Of a DNA stretch of 64,000 bases, positions 24,475-35,503 are shown piece by piece. Position numbers and translations under genes: made by a program. Origin of the DNA: Bradyrhizobium sp. 141. GTDB taxonomy: Bacteria; Pseudomonadota; Alphaproteobacteria; Rhizobiales; Xanthobacteraceae. The stretch is taken from positions 62,001-126,000 of the forward strand of contig NZ_JADPKR010000115.1 of NCBI RefSeq assembly GCF_023074055.1, given 5' to 3'. The notes below the pieces were generated by a model that was given only the letters and a program-made list of their open reading frames with translations, was not told where the DNA came from and made no database searches. The first letter of the stretch is position 1, and each line of letters starts with the position of its first letter.

Positions 24475-25395
24475 ATGGAGAAATCGGTTTGGCCCCGGGC
24501 GCGGCGGGAATCGGCGCGCGCATCATTGCCCCGGCGCAAGCTTGTACTCGGCGCCGCCGTTGCGTTCGGTCTCGTCGCCGGCGCACCGCTGAGCGCGCAG
24601 GCCGCAGCGCCCGCCGCCTGCGCCGCGCTCCAGGAGAAATACCCGGACTGGAAGGGCAAGACGCTGGTCAACGCCATCAACCCGCACACCCCGGGCTATG
24701 AGACCATCGATCCCAAGAATCCCAGTAAGTACATCGGCTTCGATATCGATCTCGGTGAGGCCATCGGCGAATGTCTCGGCTTCAAGCTGACGTACAAGGC
24801 GGTGACCTTCGCAGCGCTGCTGACAACGCTCGCGGCCGGCCAGGCCGACATCGTCATCTCCGACATCTATGCGACCAAAGAGCGCGCCAAGGCGGCCGAC
24901 TTCATCACCTATTCGAAAGTGTTCGACGGCGTGCTCGTAGCGAAGGGCAATCCCAAGGGCATCAACGGCATCAACTTGTCGCTGTGCGGCGCGGCCGCCG
25001 CCGAGAACACGGGTTATGTCGAGGTGCCCCTGATCCAGGCGTTGATGCCGGAGTGCAAGAAGGCCGGCAAGCCCGAGCCGACCATCCAGCTCTACGACAA
25101 CAACGCCAACTGCATCCAGGCGATCCTCGCCGGCCGCGCTGACACCTACGTCAACGACGTCAACACCGTCGACAGCGCGGTGAAGGCCTATCCGGACAAG
25201 CTGGAGAAGGCGGTCGCGGTGACGATCCCGTATTCGGTGGGCATCGCCGTGCCCAAGAACAAGCCGAAGTTCCGCGATGCCGTGCTCGCAGCGCTGATCG
25301 AGGTGCAGAAGGCCGGCACCCACATGGAGCTTCTGAAGAAGCATGGGCTCGATGTGAACAACTTCATGGAACCGGACATTCTCACGGCCGACTGA
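24475..25395 (+). CDS. ABC transporter substrate-binding protein, family 3
   Basis: A 306-aa periplasmic binding protein, start ATG 24475 behind CGGAGGAA. The leader has PRRKLVLGAAVAFGLVAG and the cleavage-like AQAAAPA, with a twin Arg that might direct Tat export. The mature domain shows the family-3 signature (YIGFDIDLGEAIGECLGF, ADIVISDIYATKERAKAADF, AGRADTYVNDVNTVD). Proteins of this family bind polar amino acids or related small nitrogen compounds. Its stop overlaps the start of the permease-ATPase fusion (TGATG). The neighbouring amidases suggest that the ligand may be an amide or amino-acid derivative, which is inference. Confidence 0.87.
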   Translation: MEKSVWPRARRESARASLPRRKLVLGAAVAFGLVAGAPLSAQAAAPAACAALQEKYPDWKGKTLVNAINPHTPGYETIDPKNPSKYIGFDIDLGEAIGECLGFKLTYKAVTFAALLTTLAAGQADIVISDIYATKERAKAADFITYSKVFDGVLVAKGNPKGINGINLSLCGAAAAENTGYVEVPLIQALMPECKKAGKPEPTIQLYDNNANCIQAILAGRADTYVNDVNTVDSAVKAYPDKLEKAVAVTIPYSVGIAVPKNKPKFRDAVLAALIEVQKAGTHMELLKKHGLDVNNFMEPDILTAD

Positions 25396-27017
25396 TGTCG
25401 CTGTTCCTCCACTATTTGAGCATGCCGTATCTGCTCGAGGGCATCGAGCTCACCCTCGAGGTGACTGCCCTCGGGCTCGGCGGCGGATTGATCCTCGGAT
25501 TGATCCTCGCCGGCATGCAGCTCTCCCGCTTCTGGCCCCTGGCGGCGATCGCCAGGGCCTACACCGTGATCTTCCGCGGCACGCCGCTGATCCTTCAGAT
25601 GGTGTTCGCCTACGACGCGCTGCCGCATATCGGCTTCAAGCTGCCGGCGGTGCTCGCCGCCGGCCTCGCGCTGGCCTGCAACGAGGCGCCGTTCATCGCG
25701 GAGATGCTGCGCGCCGGCGTGCTCGGCGTCGACCGCGGGCAACTGACGGCGGGGCAGGCGCTCGGCATGACGCCGTCCGTGCTGATGCGCCGGGTCATCG
25801 CGCCGCAGGCGATCCGCACCATGATCCCGGCCTTCGGCAATGAAGCGGTGAGCGCGCTGAAGAATTCCTCACTCGCCTCCGTGGTCGCGGTGCAGGAGCT
25901 GACCTTGCGCTCGACGCAGCTGGCGTCCTCGACCTTCGACTTCTTCTCGATCTTCTTCGCTTCGGGTCTGTTGTATCTGGTGCTGACCTTTGCCATCAGC
26001 GTGATCCAGCTGTTCGTTGAATGGCTGCTCGATCTCGACCGTGCCAAGGGTCGCCAGCGCAAGCTGGCGGATTATCTGCCCTGGCGCCGCGTCGATCTCG
26101 GTACCAAGCGCGAACTTGCGGAAGCGACAGCCGATGCGCCTGAGCCGGTGAAGGCCGAGCTTGTGGATACACCGGCGCTTGCTCTGACGCACGACGAGCG
26201 CGCCCGCCGCGCCGCCACGATCGCGCGCAACAACATCGCGGTCGAGACCAGGGATCTCAGCAAGAGCTACGGCCCACAAAAGGTGCTGGACGGTCTCGAC
26301 CTCACCGTGCGCGTCGGCGAGGTGGTCGCGCTGCTCGGTCCCAGCGGCTCCGGCAAGAGCACGCTGCTCCGCTGCATCAACCATCTCGAAAGCTGGGAGT
26401 CCGGCACCGTCCGCGTCGGCGGACGACGCCTCGGCTTTGGCGAGAACGGCAAGCCGCTATCGCCCCGCGACCTCGCCAATGAGCGCGCCAGTGTCGGCGT
26501 CGGCATGGTGTTCCAGCAGTTCAATCTGTTCGCGCATCTCTCGGCCAAGGAGAACATCGCCGGTCCTTTGCGCTGGGTCCACGGCATGACCCGGATCGAC
26601 GCCGACCGCCGCGCCAACGAGCTGCTCGACCGGGTCGGATTGTCGCATCGCGCCGATGCGCTGCCGCGGCATCTCTCCGGCGGCCAGCAGCAGCGCGTTG
26701 CCATCGCCCGCGCGCTTGCACCCAATCCGAGTGTGCTGCTGCTGGACGAACCGACCTCGGCGCTCGATCCCGAATTGGTCAACGAGGTGCTGGAGGTGAT
26801 CCGGCGCCTCGCCATCGACGACGGCCTCACCATGATCATCTCGACGCACCAGATCCGCTTTGCCGACGAAGTGGCCGACCGCGTCGCATTCTTGAGTGGT
26901 GGGACGATCATCGAGGAGGGGCCCGCGCACGAGGTGCTCTCCAACCCCCGCAATCCGCTGACGGCGCGATTCCTCAGTGTGATGGAAGCCGACAAGACTC
27001 CGGAGGCGGTGCGATGA
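25395..27017 (+). CDS. ABC transporter permease fused to ATP-binding protein
   Basis: A 540-aa single-chain transporter core. Residues 1-220 form a His/Glu/Gln-type permease (LLEGIELTLEVTALGLGGGL, EAA-like loop AGQALGMTPSVLMRRVIAPQ, about five helices). A charged linker of roughly 60 residues follows, then a complete ATPase: Walker [10 protein letters not shown] near residue 317, LSGGQQQR signature, Walker [14 protein letters not shown] and H-loop STHQIRF. These functions are usually on separate chains, as in the aap operon at the window start. It overlaps the binding-protein gene by the TGATG start/stop and precedes the amidase by 43 bases. Confidence 0.88.
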   Translation: MSLFLHYLSMPYLLEGIELTLEVTALGLGGGLILGLILAGMQLSRFWPLAAIARAYTVIFRGTPLILQMVFAYDALPHIGFKLPAVLAAGLALACNEAPFIAEMLRAGVLGVDRGQLTAGQALGMTPSVLMRRVIAPQAIRTMIPAFGNEAVSALKNSSLASVVAVQELTLRSTQLASSTFDFFSIFFASGLLYLVLTFAISVIQLFVEWLLDLDRAKGRQRKLADYLPWRRVDLGTKRELAEATADAPEPVKAELVDTPALALTHDERARRAATIARNNIAVETRDLSKSYGPQKVLDGLDLTVRVGEVVALLGPSGSGKSTLLRCINHLESWESGTVRVGGRRLGFGENGKPLSPRDLANERASVGVGMVFQQFNLFAHLSAKENIAGPLRWVHGMTRIDADRRANELLDRVGLSHRADALPRHLSGGQQQRVAIARALAPNPSVLLLDEPTSALDPELVNEVLEVIRRLAIDDGLTMIISTHQIRFADEVADRVAFLSGGTIIEEGPAHEVLSNPRNPLTARFLSVMEADKTPEAVR

Positions 27018-27060: not shown

Positions 27061-28302
27061 ATGAAGCATGTCACCCTGCCGGTTTCGCCGAAAACCGTCC
27101 ACTGGGGCTATTTCTCCAAGATAGTCACGCCGGCCCTGACGCTGCGCTCCGGGGATCGCGCCACCATCGAGACACTGACCCATCACGCCAATGACGATTA
27201 CGAGCGCATGATCCAGGGCGACCCCGGCGCCGAAAGCGTGTTCCAGTGGACTCGCGAGCACAAGGCCGTGGCGCGCCGCGGCTCCGGCCCTGTCGAGGGC
27301 CCCTTCGTCCGCGGCGCAGGCGAGGGGATCGGCGTGCATCTGCTCACCGGACCGGTCGCGATCGAAGGCGCCGAGCCCGGCGATATCCTGGAAGTGCGCA
27401 TTCTCGACATCCGGCCACGGCCGAGCTGCAGCGCCTGCCATGCCGGCCGCTGCTTCGGCTCCAATGTCGCAGCGAACTGGGGCTTTCACTATCACGACTT
27501 GATCGAGGAGCCGAAGCCGCGCGAGGTCATCACCATCTTCGAGCTCGACACCTCCGGCGAGCCCCACGCAAAGGCCGTCTACAATTACGTCTGGACGCCG
27601 CAGACCGACCCTGACGGCATCGTGCATCCGACCATCGACTATCCCGGCGTGCGCGTGGACCCCGCCACCATCAAGAAGCGCGAGAACATCCTCTCCAGCG
27701 TGAAGGTGCCGGCGCGGCTGCATTTCGGCACGATGGGCCTCGCACCGTCGGAGGCCGATTTCGTCAGCTCGATTCCGCCGAGCTACACCGGCGGCAACAT
27801 CGACGATTGGCGCATCGGCAAGGGCGCGCGGATGTTCTATCCGGTCGCGGTCCCAGGCGCCTATTTCTCGGTCGGCGATCCCCATGCTGCCCAGGGCGAC
27901 AGCGAGCTCGGCGGCACCGCGATCGAGACCTCGCTGACCGGCGATTTCGAATTTATCCTGCACAAGAAGGCCGACCTTGCCGGCACCAGTCTCGAAGGCC
28001 TCGACCATCCCATGCTGGAGACCGACCACGCCTGGTCATTCTACGGCTTCACTTATCCGAACTATCTCGCCGCGCTCGGCGCCGATGCGCAAACCGAGAT
28101 TGCCAATCGTTCCAGTCTCGACCGTGCGATGCGTGATGCGTTCAGAAAACTCCGCCGGTTTCTGATGACCGTGCATGGCCTCAGCGAGGACGAGGCGATC
28201 TCGCTGATGTCGGTCGGCGCCGATTTCGGCGTGACTCAGGTTGTCGACGCCAATTGGGGCGTCCACGGCACGATCCGCAAGAACGTCTTCCGGTGCGACT
28301 AA
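27061..28302 (+). CDS. Acetamidase/formamidase family protein
   Basis: A 413-aa FmdA/AmdA family hydrolase predicted to release ammonia from formamide, acetamide or a similar short amide. Family hallmarks include VHWGYFS, SGDRATIETLTHHANDD, GDILEVRILDI, FVSSIPPSYTGGNIDDWR and VGDPHAAQGDSELGGTAIE. A Cys-rich insert CSACHAGRC near residue 125 is absent in the related domain of the next gene. The C-terminus (LSEDEAISLMSVGADFGVTQVVDANWGVHG) is complete. It sits in a probable operon after the ABC transporter and before the AraC fusion, so the transported compound is likely its substrate or product source. Confidence 0.87.
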   Translation: MKHVTLPVSPKTVHWGYFSKIVTPALTLRSGDRATIETLTHHANDDYERMIQGDPGAESVFQWTREHKAVARRGSGPVEGPFVRGAGEGIGVHLLTGPVAIEGAEPGDILEVRILDIRPRPSCSACHAGRCFGSNVAANWGFHYHDLIEEPKPREVITIFELDTSGEPHAKAVYNYVWTPQTDPDGIVHPTIDYPGVRVDPATIKKRENILSSVKVPARLHFGTMGLAPSEADFVSSIPPSYTGGNIDDWRIGKGARMFYPVAVPGAYFSVGDPHAAQGDSELGGTAIETSLTGDFEFILHKKADLAGTSLEGLDHPMLETDHAWSFYGFTYPNYLAALGADAQTEIANRSSLDRAMRDAFRKLRRFLMTVHGLSEDEAISLMSVGADFGVTQVVDANWGVHGTIRKNVFRCD

Positions 28303-28337: not shown

Positions 28338-30767
28338 GTGACAAGCGGAGACCATTTGTGGCCCGTCGCAGCGACGGACGACCGCGTGCGTTTGGCACAG
28401 AGGTTGCTTCGATCGACCGCAATCTGGGTCGATCCGATGAGCTTTCGCCCGTTCACGAGCGAGTCCTACGCGCAAGACGACCGCCCCGAAGCCTGGCGGG
28501 ACGTGCTGGCGGCGGTCGGCCTGCAGCCGGCAGGCGGGCCTTCCTTCTTCGACGGGCACGCTACCGCCTCCCATCGTCATGCCGCAGGTGTCGCGCTAAC
28601 GCGCATGGCCGCGGGCGCGCAGAGTGTTGGTCCCCTCCCGCAGGCGAATGAAGACCTTCCGATCGCGCTGATGCCGGTTGATGATGGCATGGTGCTGAAG
28701 AGCGCCGGCGGACACCGCATCGTTCCGGTCGGTCATCTCGTGCTGCTGCCGCGCAGCGGGGACTGGAGCATCGTGTTCCAGCGCGACATGCGCGCCATTG
28801 TGCTGTCCCTGACATCGGAGGCGCTGCGCGGGCGCCTCTCGGGCAAGCCACGGCTCGGCGAGCCGCGCGTCGTTCCACCCGGCGGCTTTGCCGACGTGTT
28901 CTCGCGCTTGCTGGACGCGACCGCGCGCACGCTCGACACATTGAGCGATGCCGAATGGAGTTCGCTCGCGCAGTCGCTTGTCGATCTTCTCCTGACGCTC
29001 GCGCATCAGCTGGCGGCGTCGAGTTCCGATGCTGGATCCAGTGCGACGCAGACTGCGCTGCTGCACCGGATCTGCCAGACCATCGAGCGTCGCCTCGACG
29101 ACCCCGATCTGGTGCCGGCGCGTGTCGCCCAAGCCGAGGGCATTTCCGAGCGTTACTTGCAAAAGTTGTTCGAAACGGTCGGCGACAATTTCACCCATTA
29201 CGTTCGCGAGCGACGTCTTCAGCGGGCCTGGGCCGACCTATCCAATCCGACCGAGGCGCATCGCTCGATTTCGGAGATCGCTTACGCCTATGGCTTTGGC
29301 GACTCCGCGCATTTCAGCCGCGTCTTCCGCCATCGCTTCGGCCTGCCGCCGCGCGAGTTTCGCCAGCAGGAGGCGGAACGGGCGGCTGCACAGCACGGGG
29401 TCGCCGGACAGCGCGGCTGGCCGCAAGAGGCACTGGCGCAATTGCGTGCACATCAGGGCGTGGAGGCGCGCAGCAGTGTCGCCCGTACCGGCGCCGAGGA
29501 GCGGCCTTCAGCGGAGCGTAGGCATCACCATCTCCCGGTCGAAGCCAGCCGCGTTCATTGGGGCTATTTCAGCCGCTCGCTGCCGCCGCAGATTGAGATC
29601 GCGTCGGGCGACAGCGTCACCATCGAGACGCTGACGCAGCACGCCTCCGACGATCCCGCGTTGATGATCGCCGGCGATGCCGCCGCAGAAAGCGTGTTCG
29701 GCTGGACACGGGACAAGAAGAACGTCGACCGCCGCGGCGCAGGGCCCATGGATGCGAGCGTGTTCGGCCGCGGTGCCGGCGAGGGGTTTGGCGTCCACAT
29801 CTGCACCGGACCCGTCGCTGTAAAGGATGCCCAGCCAGGTGACGTGCTGGAGGTGCGCATCCTCGACATCGTGCCGCGCGCGAGCCGCAATCCGAAGCAT
29901 GCGGGCCGTGTATTCGGTTCCTCTGTCGCGGCGTGGTGGGGCTATCACTACAACGAGTTTCTCGGCGGTCCCAAGCCGCGCGAAGTCGTCACGATCTATG
30001 AGATATTCGATGACGCCGAGGTACCGCACGCCCGCGCGCTCTATTCCTACCGCTGGGTGCCGCAGACCGATCCCTTCGGCGTCGTGCACACAACCTACGA
30101 CTATCCCGGCGTTCCCGTCGCACCCGCCACGATCAAGCGTCGCCATGCCGTGCTCGACGGCGTCAAGATTCCCCTGCGTCCGCATTTCGGCGTGATCGCG
30201 GTGGCGCCGCGCGAGGTCGATTTCGTCGATTCGGTGCCGCCATCCTATTTCGGCGGCAATCTGGACAATTGGCGGCTGGGGAAGGGGGCAACCGTCTATC
30301 TTCCGGTCTCCGTTCCCGGCGCGTTGCTGTCGGTCGGGGATCCTCATGCCGCACAGGGCGATGGCGAATTGAGCGGTACCGCGATCGAATGCTCGATGAC
30401 CGGCACCTTCGAGGTGATCCTGCACAAGAAGGCCGATCTCGCCGGCCGTCCTTTCGCCGACCTCTCTTATCCCCTGATCGAGACCGAGAGCGACTGGGTC
30501 CTGACCGGCTTCAGCCACCCCAACTATCTCGCGGAATTCGGCGCGCAGGGGCAGAGCGAGGTCTACGCCAAGTCCTCGCTCGACCTCGCCATGAAAGACG
30601 CTTTTCGCAAGATGCGGCGCTTCCTGATGAACGTCAAAGGCCTCAGCGAAGACGAGGCGATCTCGCTGATGTCGGCCGCCGTCGATTTCGGCGTAACGCA
30701 GGTGGTCGATGGCAATTGGGGCGTGCATGCCATCATCAGCAAGAGCCTGTTTCAGAACGGACCTTGA
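28338..30767 (+). CDS. AraC-family regulator fused to an acetamidase/formamidase domain
   Basis: One uninterrupted frame of 809 codons joins two complete proteins. Residues about 34-235 resemble the N-terminal ligand-binding part of an AraC regulator (SFRPFTSESYAQDDRPEAWRD onward). Residues about 245-345 hold both helix-turn-helix units (ARVAQAEGISERYLQKLFE and ISEIAYAYGFGDSAHFSRVF). A 45-residue linker leads to a full FmdA/AmdA domain from about residue 394 (VHWGYFSRSLPPQIE) to the C-terminus, closely similar to the preceding gene. Start GTG 28338 is 35 bases after that gene; ATG 28437 (MSFRPF) is a plausible alternative. A self-contained amide sensor-regulator is inferred. Confidence 0.85.
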   Translation: MTSGDHLWPVAATDDRVRLAQRLLRSTAIWVDPMSFRPFTSESYAQDDRPEAWRDVLAAVGLQPAGGPSFFDGHATASHRHAAGVALTRMAAGAQSVGPLPQANEDLPIALMPVDDGMVLKSAGGHRIVPVGHLVLLPRSGDWSIVFQRDMRAIVLSLTSEALRGRLSGKPRLGEPRVVPPGGFADVFSRLLDATARTLDTLSDAEWSSLAQSLVDLLLTLAHQLAASSSDAGSSATQTALLHRICQTIERRLDDPDLVPARVAQAEGISERYLQKLFETVGDNFTHYVRERRLQRAWADLSNPTEAHRSISEIAYAYGFGDSAHFSRVFRHRFGLPPREFRQQEAERAAAQHGVAGQRGWPQEALAQLRAHQGVEARSSVARTGAEERPSAERRHHHLPVEASRVHWGYFSRSLPPQIEIASGDSVTIETLTQHASDDPALMIAGDAAAESVFGWTRDKKNVDRRGAGPMDASVFGRGAGEGFGVHICTGPVAVKDAQPGDVLEVRILDIVPRASRNPKHAGRVFGSSVAAWWGYHYNEFLGGPKPREVVTIYEIFDDAEVPHARALYSYRWVPQTDPFGVVHTTYDYPGVPVAPATIKRRHAVLDGVKIPLRPHFGVIAVAPREVDFVDSVPPSYFGGNLDNWRLGKGATVYLPVSVPGALLSVGDPHAAQGDGELSGTAIECSMTGTFEVILHKKADLAGRPFADLSYPLIETESDWVLTGFSHPNYLAEFGAQGQSEVYAKSSLDLAMKDAFRKMRRFLMNVKGLSEDEAISLMSAAVDFGVTQVVDGNWGVHAIISKSLFQNGP

Positions 30768-30780
30768 CAAGGACACTCAA

Positions 30781-31164
30781 GTGAAATTCCACATGATCAG
30801 CGGCGGACCGAAGCCGGTCGCGCCCTTCAGCCACGCCGTCGAAACCGACGGATTTGTCTTTGTGACCGGCCAGATGCCGGACACGCCGCAAGCGCCGGGC
30901 GTCTTGCCCGACGGCATCGTCGCGCAGACCCGCGCGGTGATGGAGAATTTGAAGCTGGTTTTGGCCGGCCTCGATCTCGGCCTCGAACACGTCGTCATGA
31001 CGCGCATTTATCTGACGCGCTTCAAGGACGACTACGCTGCGATGAACGAGACCTATCGCATGTACTTCGCGCCCGGTCGGCTGCCGGCCCGTACCTGTGT
31101 TGGCGTCACCGGGCTCGCCTATGACGCACTGATCGAGATCGACCTGGTGTGCCGTCGGCCGTGA
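30781..31164 (+). CDS. RidA family protein (YjgF/YER057c/UK114)
   Basis: A 127-aa RidA-like protein from GTG 30781, with AAGGA about eight bases upstream and 13 bases after the fusion gene. RidA trimers hydrolyse reactive enamine/imine intermediates from amino-acid metabolism to ketoacids and ammonia. VTGQMPDTP, the LPARTCVGV segment with the conserved carboxylate-binding Arg, and the closing LIEIDLVCRRP fit the family. Its place at the end of an amide/amino-acid cluster suggests it clears intermediates of that pathway or acts as a dedicated deaminase. Confidence 0.87.
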   Translation: MKFHMISGGPKPVAPFSHAVETDGFVFVTGQMPDTPQAPGVLPDGIVAQTRAVMENLKLVLAGLDLGLEHVVMTRIYLTRFKDDYAAMNETYRMYFAPGRLPARTCVGVTGLAYDALIEIDLVCRRP

Positions 31165-31325
31165 GAGCACGAAGTGATGCGCTGCAGAGCCGGGGCGCAT
31201 GTTGCCGCGATCCGTCCGGCACTGTGATCTAGGGGTGAACGCCCGGCTTGAACGCGCGCCCCGACCACGGCGACCAATAGATAGAGTGCACAAGGATCAG
31301 CGGAACGTGATCGCATCTCCTCTTC

Positions 31326-31350
31326 CTAAAGCACCAAAATGGTGCTTTAG
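31326..31350. promoter_or_regulatory. Palindrome matching the NtrC-site consensus
   Basis: CTAAAGCACCA at 31326-31336 and its exact complement TGGTGCTTTAG at 31340-31350 flank AAA. The core GCACCAAAATGGTGC (31331-31345) equals the classical NtrC binding sequence. A third half-like TGCTTT follows at 31351-31356. The palindrome ends eight bases before the ATG at 31359, with no Shine-Dalgarno between, so it probably lies in a promoter of a nearly leaderless transcript or acts as a repressor site. No sigma-54 promoter was recognised nearby. Confidence 0.6.
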
Positions 31351-31358
31351 TGCTTTCC

Positions 31359-32513
31359 ATGAGCCAGTCGCCCCGAAACGCGCCGTCCGCGCTGCGTTAC
31401 AGGCTTGCCCCTGATCCGGCCGCCAAGGCCGCGCTGGAGGCGACGTTCAGGGCTTATGACCGCATGATGGAGATCCTCGATGAGGTCGCGCGGAGCCACA
31501 ATGTCGGTTCCAACGTCGTGCTGCTGCATGCCCATGCCTATGACCCGATCCGCAAACAGACCGCGCTGCCGTCGCGCCTGGTGACGCTGGGTCTGCGTGA
31601 CCGCGCCGAATATCGCGCGGCGCAGGGCCGTCGTCTGCCGCTCGACGACAAGCTCGCCAAGATCAAGGGCCCGGCCACCATTTCGATTGCGACCGTGCAA
31701 GGGCGCTTCAGCGTGCCGTTCGACTATGCCGGCTATGCCGAGGGCTGGGGGCAAAGCGTGCCCGCGCGCCTGATCCGCACCGATGACGGTTTCGAAGTTC
31801 ACTACGGCGTCACGCCGAACAGTCTACCAGAGGAGGAGAACGCTATGGATACCATCGCTGCCGCTCCCGAAAATTTCCTGTCCCGGGTCGGGCGCCTGAT
31901 CGCCGGGATCGCCTATGACGCGATCGAGCAGGCGGAAGGCAAGAACAAGCTTGGGGTGGTCGGACAGGCCATCCGCGAGATCGAGCGTGCCGAGAGCGAG
32001 GCGCGCGACGCGCTCGCCGCTGCGCGTGCCGAGGAATACCGCCTCAACGCGCGCCGCACCGAGATCGAGCGCGAGATGGCCGATCTCGCGCCCAAGATCG
32101 AAGGGGCGATCATCGACGGGCGCGACGACCTCGCCCGCGCCGGCATCGCGCGGCAGATGGATCTGGAGGCGCAGTTCGAGGTGCTGTCCCGCGCCATCGA
32201 CGAGAACAACGAGAAGATCGAGCAATGCGTCACTTCGCTGCGTGCCGTGCTGTCGGCACTTCAGGACGCCGAACAGCGCCGCGCCGATCTCGAAAAGAGT
32301 GAGGCGGCCGCAAGCCATCAGGCTTCGACGTCGCCCCGCAAACAGGGCGGCAGCTCTGCGGCGGCGAAGGCGCTGCGGGCGGGCAGGGCGGTGGCGCGGG
32401 CCACCGGCGTGCCGCCGGGCATCCCGTATTCGAGCGACATCGACGAGCTCAGCACGCTCCATCGCGACAAGGAAATTGCGGCGAGGCTGGCGCGGCTGAA
32501 GTCACGCTCCTGA
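31359..32513 (+). CDS. PspA/IM30-like protein with N-terminal TnpB-WED-like domain
   Basis: A 384-aa frame from ATG 31359 (GTG 31350 possible) contains two modules. Residues 1-155 resemble the start of TnpB/IS1341 proteins: ALRYRLAPDPAAKAALEATF like the HTH_OrfB helix, then ISIATVQGRFSVPF and ARLIRTDDGFEVHYGV like the WED beta-barrel. No RuvC nuclease follows. From residue 163 (MDTIAAAPENFLSRVG) to the end the protein is a charged, largely coiled-coil PspA/IM30-like domain of 222 residues, the length of E. coli PspA. AGGAGGAG and an ATG at 31845 mark that boundary, so a short PspA form may also be made. It precedes YqiJ- and flotillin-like genes. Confidence 0.72.
   Translation: MSQSPRNAPSALRYRLAPDPAAKAALEATFRAYDRMMEILDEVARSHNVGSNVVLLHAHAYDPIRKQTALPSRLVTLGLRDRAEYRAAQGRRLPLDDKLAKIKGPATISIATVQGRFSVPFDYAGYAEGWGQSVPARLIRTDDGFEVHYGVTPNSLPEEENAMDTIAAAPENFLSRVGRLIAGIAYDAIEQAEGKNKLGVVGQAIREIERAESEARDALAAARAEEYRLNARRTEIEREMADLAPKIEGAIIDGRDDLARAGIARQMDLEAQFEVLSRAIDENNEKIEQCVTSLRAVLSALQDAEQRRADLEKSEAAASHQASTSPRKQGGSSAAAKALRAGRAVARATGVPPGIPYSSDIDELSTLHRDKEIAARLARLKSRS
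31831..31838 (+). promoter_or_regulatory. Strong internal ribosome binding site
   Basis: AGGAGGAG lies six bases before an in-frame ATG at 31845, exactly where the PspA-like domain begins. It is a better signal than anything before the first start of this gene. Translation from here gives a 222-aa protein ending at 32513. Confidence 0.6.
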
Positions 32514-32523
32514 GTACCGTGTC

Positions 32524-33183
32524 ATGAGCGCTCTGCTCGAACACGTCATGTCGCCGGAGGTCAGGCCGTTCGCGATCGCGGCGGCCATGATCCTCATCGT
32601 CGGCTCGATCGAGGTGGTCTCGATGCTGGTCGGGGCCTCCTTGAGCGAGATGCTCGGCACCAACATCGACTTTGGTCATCCCAGCGACAATGGCGTGATC
32701 AACGCCATCTCCTGGATCAATGTCGGCGGCGTGCCGCTGCTGATCTTCCTGCTGCTGCTGCTCGGCGCCTTCTCCATCACCGGCTTCCTGATCCAGGACA
32801 TCGCGCGGATGGTGGCCGGTCCCTTGCCGGCGACGGTCGCCTCGGTCGGGGCCGTCGTGGTGTCGGTTCCGCTGGTCCGCGCCGCCAGCAGGGCCATCGC
32901 GCGGGTCATTCCCAAGGATGAAAGCTATGCCGTCGGCTTAGGGGATCTCGTCGGCCGCATCGGCGAGGTCGTCATCGGCCCGCTCGACCAGGGGCCGCCC
33001 GGCCGCGTCAGCGTCGCCGATATCCACGGCAACCGCCATTTCGTCTGGGCGGTCGCCGCGCCGTCGTCATCACCCCTGCCGCAGGGAACCATGGTCCTGC
33101 TGGTCGACCGCGACGGCACCCGCTTCGTCGCAGTGAAGGCCGACGATGAACTTAAGCCGTCCAAGCCACCTCTAAGCAGCTAG
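32524..33183 (+). CDS. YqiJ-like membrane protein with OB-fold (NfeD-related)
   Basis: A 219-aa inner-membrane protein starting ten bases after the PspA-like gene. Three hydrophobic segments (AIAAAMILIVGSIEVVSMLVG, the VPLLIFLLLLLGAFSITGFLI region and VASVGAVVVSVPLVRA) precede a C-terminal beta-rich domain (GLGDLVGRIGEVVIG...GTMVLLVDRDGTRFVAV) of the OB-fold type. This matches YqiJ, which accompanies flotillin YqiK in E. coli. The probable role is membrane-domain organisation or envelope-stress response together with its neighbours. Confidence 0.8.
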   Translation: MSALLEHVMSPEVRPFAIAAAMILIVGSIEVVSMLVGASLSEMLGTNIDFGHPSDNGVINAISWINVGGVPLLIFLLLLLGAFSITGFLIQDIARMVAGPLPATVASVGAVVVSVPLVRAASRAIARVIPKDESYAVGLGDLVGRIGEVVIGPLDQGPPGRVSVADIHGNRHFVWAVAAPSSSPLPQGTMVLLVDRDGTRFVAVKADDELKPSKPPLSS

Positions 33184-33206
33184 CAGTTCATTCATTGGAG
33201 AAAGTC

Positions 33207-34907
33207 ATGTTCGACATCGCAGTCCCGGCCATGATCGGCGTCGCGCTGATCGTCGTCCTCGGGATCGTCTTCACCATCCTCTACAAACGGGCCACGCGTG
33301 ACGAAGCCTTCGTGCGCACCGGACTCGGTGGCAAGAAGGTCGTGCTCGACGGCGGCGCCATGATCCTGCCGATCTTCCACTCCTATGCCAGCGTCAATCT
33401 GAAGACGCTGCGGCTTACCGTGGAACGCAAGGAGCGGGAATCCCTGATCACCAGGGACCGCCTGCGCGTCGACATCGTTGCCGAGTTCTATGTACGCGTC
33501 CGCCCCGACGATGAGAGTATCGCACTTGCGAGCCAGACGCTGGGTGCGCTGACCAATGACGCCGAAGCCCTGCGCAACCAGGTCGAGGCGAAATTCGTCG
33601 ACGGCCTGCGCTCGGTGGCGGCGACCATGAGCATCCTCGAACTCCAGGAGAAGCGCTCGGACTTCGTCAAGCATGTGCAGGCTACAGTCGAGTCCGACGT
33701 CAAATCCAACGGCCTCGAGCTTGAATCCGTGTCGCTCACTAAGCTCGACCAGACCGACGTCAAGTTCTTCAACCCGGAAAACTTCTTCGACGCCGAGGGC
33801 CTGACCCAATTGAAGACCGTCACCGAGACCCGCCGGCGCGACCGCAATGCCATTGTGCGCGACAACGAGGTGGCGATTGCGCAAAAGGACCTCGAGGCGC
33901 GCCAGCAGACCCTCGGGATCGAACGGACCAAGAAGGAGGCCGAGCTCTCCCAGGAGCGCGACATCGCCAACAAGACCGCGAGCACCCGGGCCGAGGTCGC
34001 GACCGCCACGCAGACCGCGCGCCTCACCGAGGAAAATGCCCGCATCGACACCGACCGAGCCGTTGCCGAGAAGGAGGCCGGCGCCAAGCAGGTCAAGGAA
34101 ACCGCGGTGATCGAGTCGGATCTGGCGATCAACAAGCGCAAAACCGACGCTCAGCGCGAGATCCAAATCGCCACGCAGGAGAACGAGATCCAGATCGCTG
34201 CCAAGAGCAAAGAGACCTCGGAAGCCGTCACCGAAGCCAAGACCGCCGAAGCGCTCGCCGTTTCCGCCGAGGAAAAGGTCGTCACCGCGCGCGCCGTCGA
34301 GGTGGCCGATCGTGCCCGTCTCACTCAGGTGCTGGCCGCGCGCACCGAGGCCGAACGCAAATCGACCGAGCTGATCGTTGCGGCCGAGGCCGAGAAGAAG
34401 GCCTCGCTCGATCGCGCCGAGGCTGTGAAGACGCTGGCCACCGCGGAGGCCGAGTCCAACAAGATCAAGGCCGTCGGCGTCCGCAACATCGGTGAGGCCG
34501 AGGCCGCCGTCATCACCATGAAGAACGAGGCGCAGAACAAGCTCGGCAGCAACGTCATCGACTTCGAGATCGCCAAGAAGCGGATCGAGACGATGCCGTC
34601 GGCGCTGGCCGAGATGGTCAAGCCCATCGCCAACCTCAAGGACGTCCGCATCCTGCACACCGGCGGCGCGTTCGGCGGCAACGGGGCCGGCGGAGGCAAT
34701 GTCGGCTTCGGCGAAGGACTCGCCGGCGAGCTGCTCAAGGTGCACGCGCTGCGTCCGATGATCGACGAGATCCTGCGCCAGAGCGGCTTTGCGCCGGGCG
34801 ATGATCCCGTGCAGGCGCTGGTCGGCGCCGTGACCGGGAAGAGCAACGGCGCCGCTGTGCCGGCGCCGGCCCCGGCGCCGGAGAGGACAAACGCCGCCGA
34901 TCTATGA
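33207..34907 (+). CDS. Flotillin family protein (YqiK-like)
   Basis: A 566-aa flotillin. ATG 33207 follows TTGGAGAAAGTC with good spacing; a TTG at 33195 is within that signal. The N-terminal membrane helix (AVPAMIGVALIVVLGIVFTILY) is followed by the SPFH/PHB domain (FVRTGLGGKKVVLDGGAMILPIFH onward) to about residue 200, then a long Ala/Glu/Lys heptad-rich coiled coil rich in EAE and KEA repeats to about residue 455, and a Gly-rich C-terminus. Flotillins scaffold ordered membrane domains. The gene order PspA-like, YqiJ, YqiK is a recognised association. Confidence 0.88.
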   Translation: MFDIAVPAMIGVALIVVLGIVFTILYKRATRDEAFVRTGLGGKKVVLDGGAMILPIFHSYASVNLKTLRLTVERKERESLITRDRLRVDIVAEFYVRVRPDDESIALASQTLGALTNDAEALRNQVEAKFVDGLRSVAATMSILELQEKRSDFVKHVQATVESDVKSNGLELESVSLTKLDQTDVKFFNPENFFDAEGLTQLKTVTETRRRDRNAIVRDNEVAIAQKDLEARQQTLGIERTKKEAELSQERDIANKTASTRAEVATATQTARLTEENARIDTDRAVAEKEAGAKQVKETAVIESDLAINKRKTDAQREIQIATQENEIQIAAKSKETSEAVTEAKTAEALAVSAEEKVVTARAVEVADRARLTQVLAARTEAERKSTELIVAAEAEKKASLDRAEAVKTLATAEAESNKIKAVGVRNIGEAEAAVITMKNEAQNKLGSNVIDFEIAKKRIETMPSALAEMVKPIANLKDVRILHTGGAFGGNGAGGGNVGFGEGLAGELLKVHALRPMIDEILRQSGFAPGDDPVQALVGAVTGKSNGAAVPAPAPAPERTNAADL

Positions 34908-35114
34908 ATGCCCGTTCATTGCTGCGGAGAATTCGAAACGATAAACAGGCTGGGCGCGTCTCGCGTCGCGCAACGTCCCGGAGTGCAGATCGATCGTGTC
35001 CTGAACCTTTCGATCGCGCTCCGGACGTGTCTCGAGGCAACGCCTTTTGTTGCCGCGGCGCCTGCGCCGATCGACGCCAGGCGCTGAGGCCTGTTTCGAT
35101 CGGAGGATTTTCAA

Positions 35115-35483
35115 ATGAAGTATTTTCTGTCTGGATTGATCGCGATCGGTCTTTCGATCGCCACCATGCCGTCGTTCGCGGCCGACGCCCGCAACGTCAC
35201 CGTCGTCAACGAGACCGGCTATGCCATCAAATTCCTGGGCTTCAACGCGCCGGACGATGGCCTGGACGAGTGGGACAACGAGCTTGAGAAGGTGTTGCAG
35301 AACCAGGCCAGCACCTATGTCGAGTTCGACGAGGACGACGAGGGCTGTATCTGGAACGTCCGGGTCGACTGGCAGAGCTACGACGAAGCCGTGCTGTGGA
35401 AGAACGTCAACCTCTGCAAGGTGACAGCGCTTCGGTTGCGCTACGATTCCGGCACCAAGACCACCTCGTTTCTCGCGGAATAG
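35115..35483 (+). CDS. Secreted hypothetical protein
   Basis: A 122-aa exported protein. ATG 35115 lies behind GGAGGATT. The signal peptide MKYFLSGLIAIGLSIATMPSFA is cut before ADARN. The mature part is acidic and beta-rich (NVTVVNETGYAIKFLGFN, then DEDDEGCIWNVRVDW) with two Cys that could form a disulfide. The motif VVNxTGYxI recalls small periplasmic proteins of unknown role in Rhizobiales. It is monocistronic, with a hairpin 20 bases after the stop. Confidence 0.7.
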   Translation: MKYFLSGLIAIGLSIATMPSFAADARNVTVVNETGYAIKFLGFNAPDDGLDEWDNELEKVLQNQASTYVEFDEDDEGCIWNVRVDWQSYDEAVLWKNVNLCKVTALRLRYDSGTKTTSFLAE

Positions 35484-35503
35484 CGATTGGCCGTTACGGC
35501 CCG

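Follow-up and report, generated by a model that had tools for sequence, protein, structure and literature searches.

To our knowledge every exaptation of TnpB (Cas12, Fanzor and TldR) retains its guide RNA together with a RuvC domain, if only a dead one; the TldRs of Wiegand 2024 are reportedly TnpB-like nuclease-dead repressors. In the portion of PMC10097598 available, ISDra2 TnpB is described with its WED domain (residues 1-12 and 117-176) and REC domain (residues 13-116) both ahead of RuvC, with a WED/REC cleft that binds the duplex of the transposon-associated motif (TAM) and with the scaffold of the omegaRNA lying on WED and RuvC. TldRs appear in the available part of PMC13418256 as domesticated TnpBs that have a guide RNA and whose RuvC domain is inactivated. 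PspA has been described together with YqiJ/YuaF, flotillin and a CesT/Tir partner (PMC11237479, in the part available), and the words TnpB, RuvC, transposase and Bradyrhizobium are all absent from the main text of that paper. No earlier link of TnpB with PspA or with flotillin was found in a literature search that left subscription papers and preprints largely uncovered. Here we analyse a stretch of 64,000 nucleotides (nt) from Bradyrhizobium sp. 141 (contig NZ_JADPKR010000115.1, positions 62,001 to 126,000; hereafter the window), in which a 384-amino-acid (aa) protein, encoded directly ahead of yqiJ and a flotillin gene, joins a 160-aa N-terminal domain (N-domain) to a PspA/IM30 domain. The N-domain is almost certainly homologous to the recognition lobe (WED plus REC) of TnpB. 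Among PspA-YqiJ-flotillin systems, the locus stands out by a partner whose origin is wholly unexpected.

A TnpB recognition lobe joined to PspA

A sequence-only reading of this gene had proposed that its N-terminus resembles the WED region of TnpB and that a PspA/IM30 coiled coil stands in place of the RuvC nuclease. The translation confirms the open reading frame (ORF) and every motif quoted from it; the first ATG is at 31359 and the stop codon at 32511-32513, and the GTG at 31350, in the same frame, is an alternative start. The PspA assignment is likewise upheld, as the Pfam family PspA_IM30 matches residues 174-332 (46.2 bits against a cut-off of 33.9) and the full-length AlphaFold model matches Vipp1 (7o3w, E 1.0e-5) and PspA (4whe, E 3.1e-4). 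Since that model has a predicted local distance difference test score (pLDDT) of 69.5 and a predicted template modelling score (pTM) of 0.39, how it positions the lobe relative to PspA cannot be interpreted. Past residue 160 the sequence is PspA, the RuvC domain with its catalytic D/E/D is absent, and the whole translation contains a single cysteine and hence lacks the CCCC zinc finger (TNB domain) of TnpB. Because the RuvC half is missing, the fusion protein is derived from TnpB and yet is not a TnpB.

The likeness of the N-domain to TnpB exceeds chance in three profile-based comparisons. A hidden Markov model (HMM) of the family was built from 10 sequences (six rows of a 13-member alignment and four added) and also served in the surveys of loci with and without the lobe. 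All 7 TnpB-type proteins score over its inclusion threshold, the best at 1.4e-17, and the 147 decoys made by reversal or shuffling all fall short of it. Because these seven proteins had been retrieved by likeness to the lobe itself, TnpBs were then picked via their RuvC half; the 13 used were hand-chosen for diversity among 80 listed, with RuvC queries from two plasmid TnpBs. With the set size fixed at 1000, the HMM recovers eight of them, the best being an alphaproteobacterial TnpB from Rhodovastum (1.1e-19), and misses those of Meiothermus taiwanensis, Acaryochloris and Streptomyces vietnamensis, a Haloterrigena fragment and a truncated Acidithiobacillus protein. The cleanest test of TnpB homology comes from 398 whole genomes, of which 10 match the family profile at E <=0.001. 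The fusion family accounts for nine of these; the remaining match (G817, E 1.9e-7), the sole one outside the class, is a TnpB whose frame is also a guided_TnpB match. Among 806 ORFs of the retrieved loci, the 16 over the inclusion threshold are all TnpBs or what their position and sequence mark as TnpB remnants; no ORF of the classical pseudomonadotal TnpB loci (L119, L125-L153) exceeds it.

Comparison by hhalign aligns residues 7-165 of the lobe with residues 1-181 of one TnpB subtype (probability 99.5, E 3.7e-21), which is the whole pre-RuvC region. The lobe profile by itself gives no significant alignment with ISDra2-type TnpBs (probability 5%), and a profile that includes the intermediate subtype reaches 92.7%; the link of the lobe to ISDra2-type TnpBs needs that intermediate.

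By single-sequence search the N-domain of the window has no significant match in Pfam or PHROGs and none in NCBIfam. In a check against the OrfB_IS605 families, which the sequence-only reading had advised, the direct Pfam match to HTH_OrfB_IS605 is weak (E 0.21, under the family cut-off); with the family profile the likeness to TnpB is strong. Matches taken as chance are ABC_BMP_B6 (E 0.0014) and HAD-SF-IIB-MPGP (E 0.0091) in NCBIfam, found with two and four of 13 family members respectively, and the sticholysins, the only PDB matches by sequence (best E 0.069); the lobe profile and a mixed lobe/TnpB profile found zero matches among PDB sequences. A tblastn search of 72,556 plasmids with a diverged family member matched 22 records. 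Half of these (11) are the PspA-fused family, five carry the annotation TnpB or transposase, another two, annotated as hypothetical, are TnpB-like pieces, four are unrelated, and every E-value outside the PspA-fused family is weak (best 1e-3). The phage collection yielded four weak records, none spanning >40% of the query.

The AlphaFold2 model of the N-domain (29 sequences) has a pLDDT of 84.6 and a pTM of 0.82. Foldseek with this model returns nothing at E <=0.001; its top 18 rows are all of Cas12/TnpB/Fanzor type (best 7wju at 7.9e-3; TnpB 8h1j at 8.4e-3), and all 50 matches listed by VIA-align belong to the TnpB/Cas12/Fanzor superfamily. The comparison with the TnpB fold that had been suggested as a check gives a Z of 10.3 for ISDra2 TnpB (8exa) over 141 residues at a root-mean-square deviation of 3.8, with residues 7-157 of the model on TnpB 2-179. 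Because the WED/REC boundaries of ISDra2 TnpB match this alignment, the N-domain is a complete recognition lobe with no part of the nuclease lobe. The WED claim was thus right in homology and fold but too narrow, as the domain is larger than WED and includes REC.

Two plasmid loci with TnpB-like pieces are recorded here in their own right. In Thermobacillus composti plasmid NC_019898 (L156:2381-2911) a 176-aa 'hypothetical' protein is a bare TnpB recognition lobe with a non-RuvC tail, which could be a tnpB that has decayed or another instance of the lobe used by itself. In Allomeiothermus plasmid pMESIL01 (L158:2513-3538) tnpB is apparently split into two pieces annotated as hypothetical.

Distribution and selection

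Named Bradyrhizobium records encode the fusion protein at up to 98% identity, and the lobe is present in 21 of 60 relatives. Across the order, 37 of 397 genomes match at E <=0.1, 24 of them at <1e-30 with open frames of 369-519 aa, and across the class the lobe is found in 6 of 385 genomes. The lobe is also plasmid-borne in Agrobacterium, Rhizobium, Shinella and Bosea. Lobe and PspA start share one open frame in all 110 surveyed loci, a set that includes the same species more than once and in which L023-L088 were retrieved with the full-length protein, so that the fused frame was partly selected for among them. Both neighbour checks, for yqiJ and flotillin directly 3' of the fusion gene on the same strand, are passed in 87 of the 110; another 21 loci end too early for flotillin or for both genes, and two fall outside the offset windows, one being L191, in which the flotillin frame opens early. 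The N-domain therefore does travel with PspA, YqiJ and flotillin.

In a FastTree phylogeny, 20 lobes (two entered in shortened form) form a single clade against 15 TnpB halves (support 1.000). The median ratio of nonsynonymous to synonymous substitution rates (dN/dS) for 300 random pairs from 70 distinct clade-I genes is 0.099 in the lobe and 0.102 in PspA, which indicates that the lobe is under purifying selection. Given one clade and a dN/dS of ~0.10, the lobe looks domesticated, and the domesticated arrangement suggested by the sequence-only reading gains support.

In the same-genus genome G410 (L113) the lobe-PspA gene is decayed, with the lobe over two frames and most of PspA apparently deleted. 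Record JAUEPE010000003.1 (L047), labelled Frankia sp. RB7, holds a gene 95% identical to that of the window and is probably mislabelled or contaminated.

A probable internal start for PspA

Beyond what the sequence-only reading had noticed, the family displays an internal PspA start, an upstream dyad and, in related operons, another gene in the position of the lobe. The sequence AGAGGAGGAGAACGCT-ATG runs directly into the PspA start at Met163. Of 49 distinct genes, 44 have an anti-Shine-Dalgarno match of at least 5 nt at 3-12 nt ahead of the ATG of PspA, compared with 10 of 275 other in-frame Met codons and 5.9% of all 19,015 other codons; matches of at least 6 nt occur in 30 of the 49, in none of the 275 and at 1.7% of all codons. 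For this count the start was taken as the second Met in the MEENM and MEQKMM genes. The five exceptions are L183, L185 and L190, which show AAAGAG only, and L180 and L192, with a 4-nt match. Differing peptides encode the Shine-Dalgarno sequence in different families (PEEENAM, PEEKTM, QKETTM, AEGEHTM), and in clade I the PEEE codons rank first of 376 four-codon windows for least synonymous variation. It should be noted that the five-codon window PEEEN ranks only 9th of 375 and that some other Glu codons are equally constant. The conservation of the site and its low synonymous variation suggest that selection maintains not only the fusion but also the ribosome-binding site. As the in-frame Shine-Dalgarno sequence and ATG are conserved, one gene probably makes two products, lobe-PspA and a short PspA.

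A dyad upstream of the operon

Upstream of the long-form start, the window matches the dyad pattern AAAGCAC-N7-GTGCTTT exactly at 31328-31349, a candidate operator or, if transcribed, a leader hairpin. Among 23 same-genus genomes, each of the 15 with the lobe has a single exact copy of the dyad, immediately 5' of the lobe, and the eight without the lobe have none; among other genomes the pattern is found in 1 of 14 (G042, without lobe). The arms are exact in 72 of 101 distinct upstream stretches, and 6 or 7 of 7 positions are paired in 94. Two of the seven poorly paired stretches (L018, L191) are misplaced windows, and the dyads of both loci were found separately. The best pairing partner of the left arm is, in several relatives, the third half-site copy. 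For 17 dyads hand-picked from representatives (identical copies, L190 and L196 left out), 93.3% of cells are paired and six cells are changed on both sides, values each reached by 0/500 shuffles.

In other genera, the dyad of 17 of 22 representatives sits within the spacer of TTGAAA-N17/18-TAT/TAA-like hexamers. Of these promoter-like pairs, 14 score >=9/12 and 16 of the 17 are followed by an ATG 6-7 nt further on; the scan took the best pair per stretch without a shuffled control, except in L162, where two pairs were found against 0.2 in shuffles.

Operons without the lobe

Seven alphaproteobacterial loci encode the same kind of PspA with yqiJ and flotillin, without the lobe. In six of them (L233, L234, L243-L246) a gene for a protein of ~170 aa abuts or overlaps pspA, and no upstream gene was found in the seventh (L235). 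The ~170-aa proteins have a common N-terminus with invariant SVR and TPS.K.R, and repeated GCATACA-like half-sites were seen by eye upstream of several of the genes. This gene family is a candidate regulator of PspA-YqiJ-flotillin operons.

Possible roles of the lobe

Homology, fold, fusion, a conserved operon, the internal Shine-Dalgarno sequence with its ATG and a covarying dyad are what the sequences and models provide, and the best explanation that we can build on them, running from capture to stress-released autorepression, is tentative and falls somewhat short of probable. An ancestral alphaproteobacterium would have acquired a TnpB recognition lobe, probably in a single event, at the head of a pspA-yqiJ-flotillin operon, with in-frame fusion to pspA; pspA itself would have retained its own ribosome-binding site and start. 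The long lobe-PspA and a more abundant short PspA would co-polymerise, together with YqiJ and flotillin, into a membrane scaffold of ESCRT-III type. The lobe, retaining the type of cleft that TnpB uses for the TAM duplex, would bind the dyad at the operon start without a guide and repress the operon; membrane stress would pull PspA to the membrane, the lobe would leave the dyad and the operon would turn on. For its central element, a guide-free TnpB lobe acting as a DNA-binding autoregulator of its own operon, we would claim slightly less, and less again for the full proposition that a lobe without guide or nuclease reads sequence and represses its operon while tied by the fusion to an ESCRT-III-type membrane scaffold, so that one gene would make both the stress sensor-repressor (long form) and the polymer for membrane repair (short form). 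An autoregulator tied to PspA is favoured because the lobe is free of nuclease and first in the operon, the dyad tracks the lobe, and the lobe replaces another small protein; the basic TnpB positions 65, 98 and 116 are kept in the lobes. The covariation of the dyad, its place between promoter-like hexamers in other genera and the half-sites ahead of the ~170-aa genes count on the same side.

Several observations weigh against an autoregulator. Mean net charge per 100 residues is -0.9 in 20 lobes versus +3.2 in 15 TnpB N-halves, in a comparison where two haloarchaeal TnpBs are also negative and the alphaproteobacterial Rhodovastum TnpB is only +1. Position 77 is R in 8 of 14 TnpB halves and L in five aligned lobes, and position 81 is K/R in 10 of 14 and D in the same five lobes (N in lobe L013). 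L196 carries the fusion with a poor dyad, four relatives pair at 5/7 only, and the number of dyad pairs changed on both sides (two) is ordinary, being reached by 57/500 shuffles. A scan of the window found no sigma-70-like promoter, and among seven same-genus representatives only L016 has a convincing one around the dyad. A ribbon-helix-helix likeness of the ~170-aa protein, seen by eye only, is unconfirmed by Pfam and PDB profiles. The dyad could also be the target of a regulator encoded elsewhere, or an RNA hairpin.

The alternative that survives best, possible if doubtful, is that the lobe no longer binds nucleic acid and acts as a protein module, for example as a spacer, a docking site or a cap, to limit the PspA polymer or to position it beside YqiJ and flotillin, with the internal start maintaining a ratio of capped to plain PspA. 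The near-zero or negative charge of the lobes and L77/D81, where many related TnpBs have R/K, fit such a module, and the single frame of lobe and PspA throughout the surveyed loci suggests a role within the polymer. However, a protein module leaves the operon-linked dyad to some other regulator, and the five aligned lobes keep the basic positions shared with TnpB (R65, K/R98, K/R103, R116).

It is unlikely that the lobe instead binds RNA, either at a leader hairpin formed by the dyad, so tuning translation of the long form, or as a sensor of stress-released RNA. The hairpin of the window would be stable as RNA (-18.3 kcal/mol, z -4.43), the covarying dyads include three G-U cells, and the dyad ends 8 nt before the long-form ATG, ahead of which no strong Shine-Dalgarno sequence was seen by eye in 24 upstream stretches. 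However, the position of the dyad between promoter-like hexamers in other genera argues against this, since these hexamers end mostly 6-7 nt before the ATG and the dyad would stay untranscribed; the charge loss of the lobes points the same way. RNA sensing, recruitment to the nucleoid and defence, the functions raised by the sequence-only reading, are conjectural or weakened in view of this charge loss and of PADLOC, whose matches are confined to the PspA coiled coil (best LeoA, E 8.1e-5, residues 200-334).

That the protein is still RNA-guided in the manner of TldR, by a guide encoded elsewhere, is most improbable. In the available text of PMC10097598, WED of ISDra2 TnpB touches part of the omegaRNA, which would favour this idea, but the RuvC half that contacts the RNA with it is absent here. 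No guided_TnpB match was found in the bacterium's own genome, and an Rfam scan of 30500-35500 gave no family at gathering score (Rfam may not cover omegaRNAs), with one sub-threshold CRISPR-repeat match on the opposite strand. Least credible of all is a convergent resemblance or membership of another family such as a CesT/Tir-like chaperone, for which CesT/Tir genes as known PspA partners, the insignificant direct comparison with ISDra2-type TnpBs, the lack of a Foldseek match at E <=0.001 and the fact that no single sequence passes a Pfam cut-off for the N-domain could be cited, but against which one TnpB subtype bridges lobe and TnpB with strong statistics and the top Foldseek rows are uniformly of TnpB/Cas12/Fanzor type; no CesT/Tir entry is among the Foldseek and VIA-align matches listed, which come from general fold searches only and exclude nothing.

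Features of the locus and of the window

Table 1. Features of the fusion gene, its operon and its upstream region, in positions of the window.
Feature	Position	Strand	Evidence
Long fusion gene, TnpB lobe-PspA, 384 aa	31359..32513	+	ORF, Pfam; shared frame in 110/110 loci
TnpB-derived recognition lobe (WED-REC-WED), ~residues 10-153	31386..31817	+	AlphaFold2, HMM, fold and tree comparisons
PspA/IM30 domain, own start Met163, predicted short product of 222 aa	31845..32513	+	Pfam PspA_IM30, fold matches
yqiJ, OB-fold membrane protein, operon gene 2	32524..33183	+	Pfam 69.8 and 40.2 bits; locus survey
Flotillin/band-7 gene, yqiK-like, operon gene 3	33195..34907	+	Pfam 106.4 bits; locus survey
Internal Shine-Dalgarno AGGAGG, 8 nt ahead of ATG	31831..31836	+	Sequence, family conservation
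Dyad, 11-bp arms 31326-31336 and 31340-31350, 3-nt loop	31326..31350		Pattern match, covariation
Third half-site GTGCTTT adjoining the dyad	31350..31356	+	Sequence

Elsewhere in the window, an AraC-type regulator is fused in frame to an acetamidase/formamidase (28338-30767, 809 aa), and a second formamidase gene (27061-28302) lies next to it. Positions 25395-27017 encode the permease and ATPase of an amino-acid ABC transporter in one 540-aa protein.

Comparison with known systems

The entire pre-RuvC half of the TnpB subtype of Rhodovastum, Parageobacillus and Allomeiothermus aligns collinearly with the lobe. Unlike TnpB, the fusion lacks RuvC and the zinc finger, no guide RNA was seen in the Rfam scan of the locus, and the lobe, which has mostly lost its charge, forms one protein with PspA and stays within a single host operon. 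Like the TldRs, it places domesticated TnpB parts beside non-transposon genes, with control of transcription that is only proposed here; TldRs, in contrast, retain a dead RuvC and guide binding, whereas the fusion is without the entire RuvC half and has no known guide. As in the CesT/Tir-PspA systems, PspA, a YqiJ-like protein and a band-7/flotillin protein occur together with a small partner linked to PspA, but here a TnpB lobe fills the partner role, within the same protein as PspA. The ~170-aa gene of other alphaproteobacterial operons occupies the same place at pspA, with yqiJ and flotillin in the locus, yet it is a separate gene with a different sequence and different upstream repeats. 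Through the fusion the world of RNA-guided nucleases meets the PspA/ESCRT-III response to membrane stress, in what may be a self-contained stress circuit. Since the lobe alone survives here, it offers a direct test case for whether the recognition lobe of TnpB by itself reads nucleic acid.
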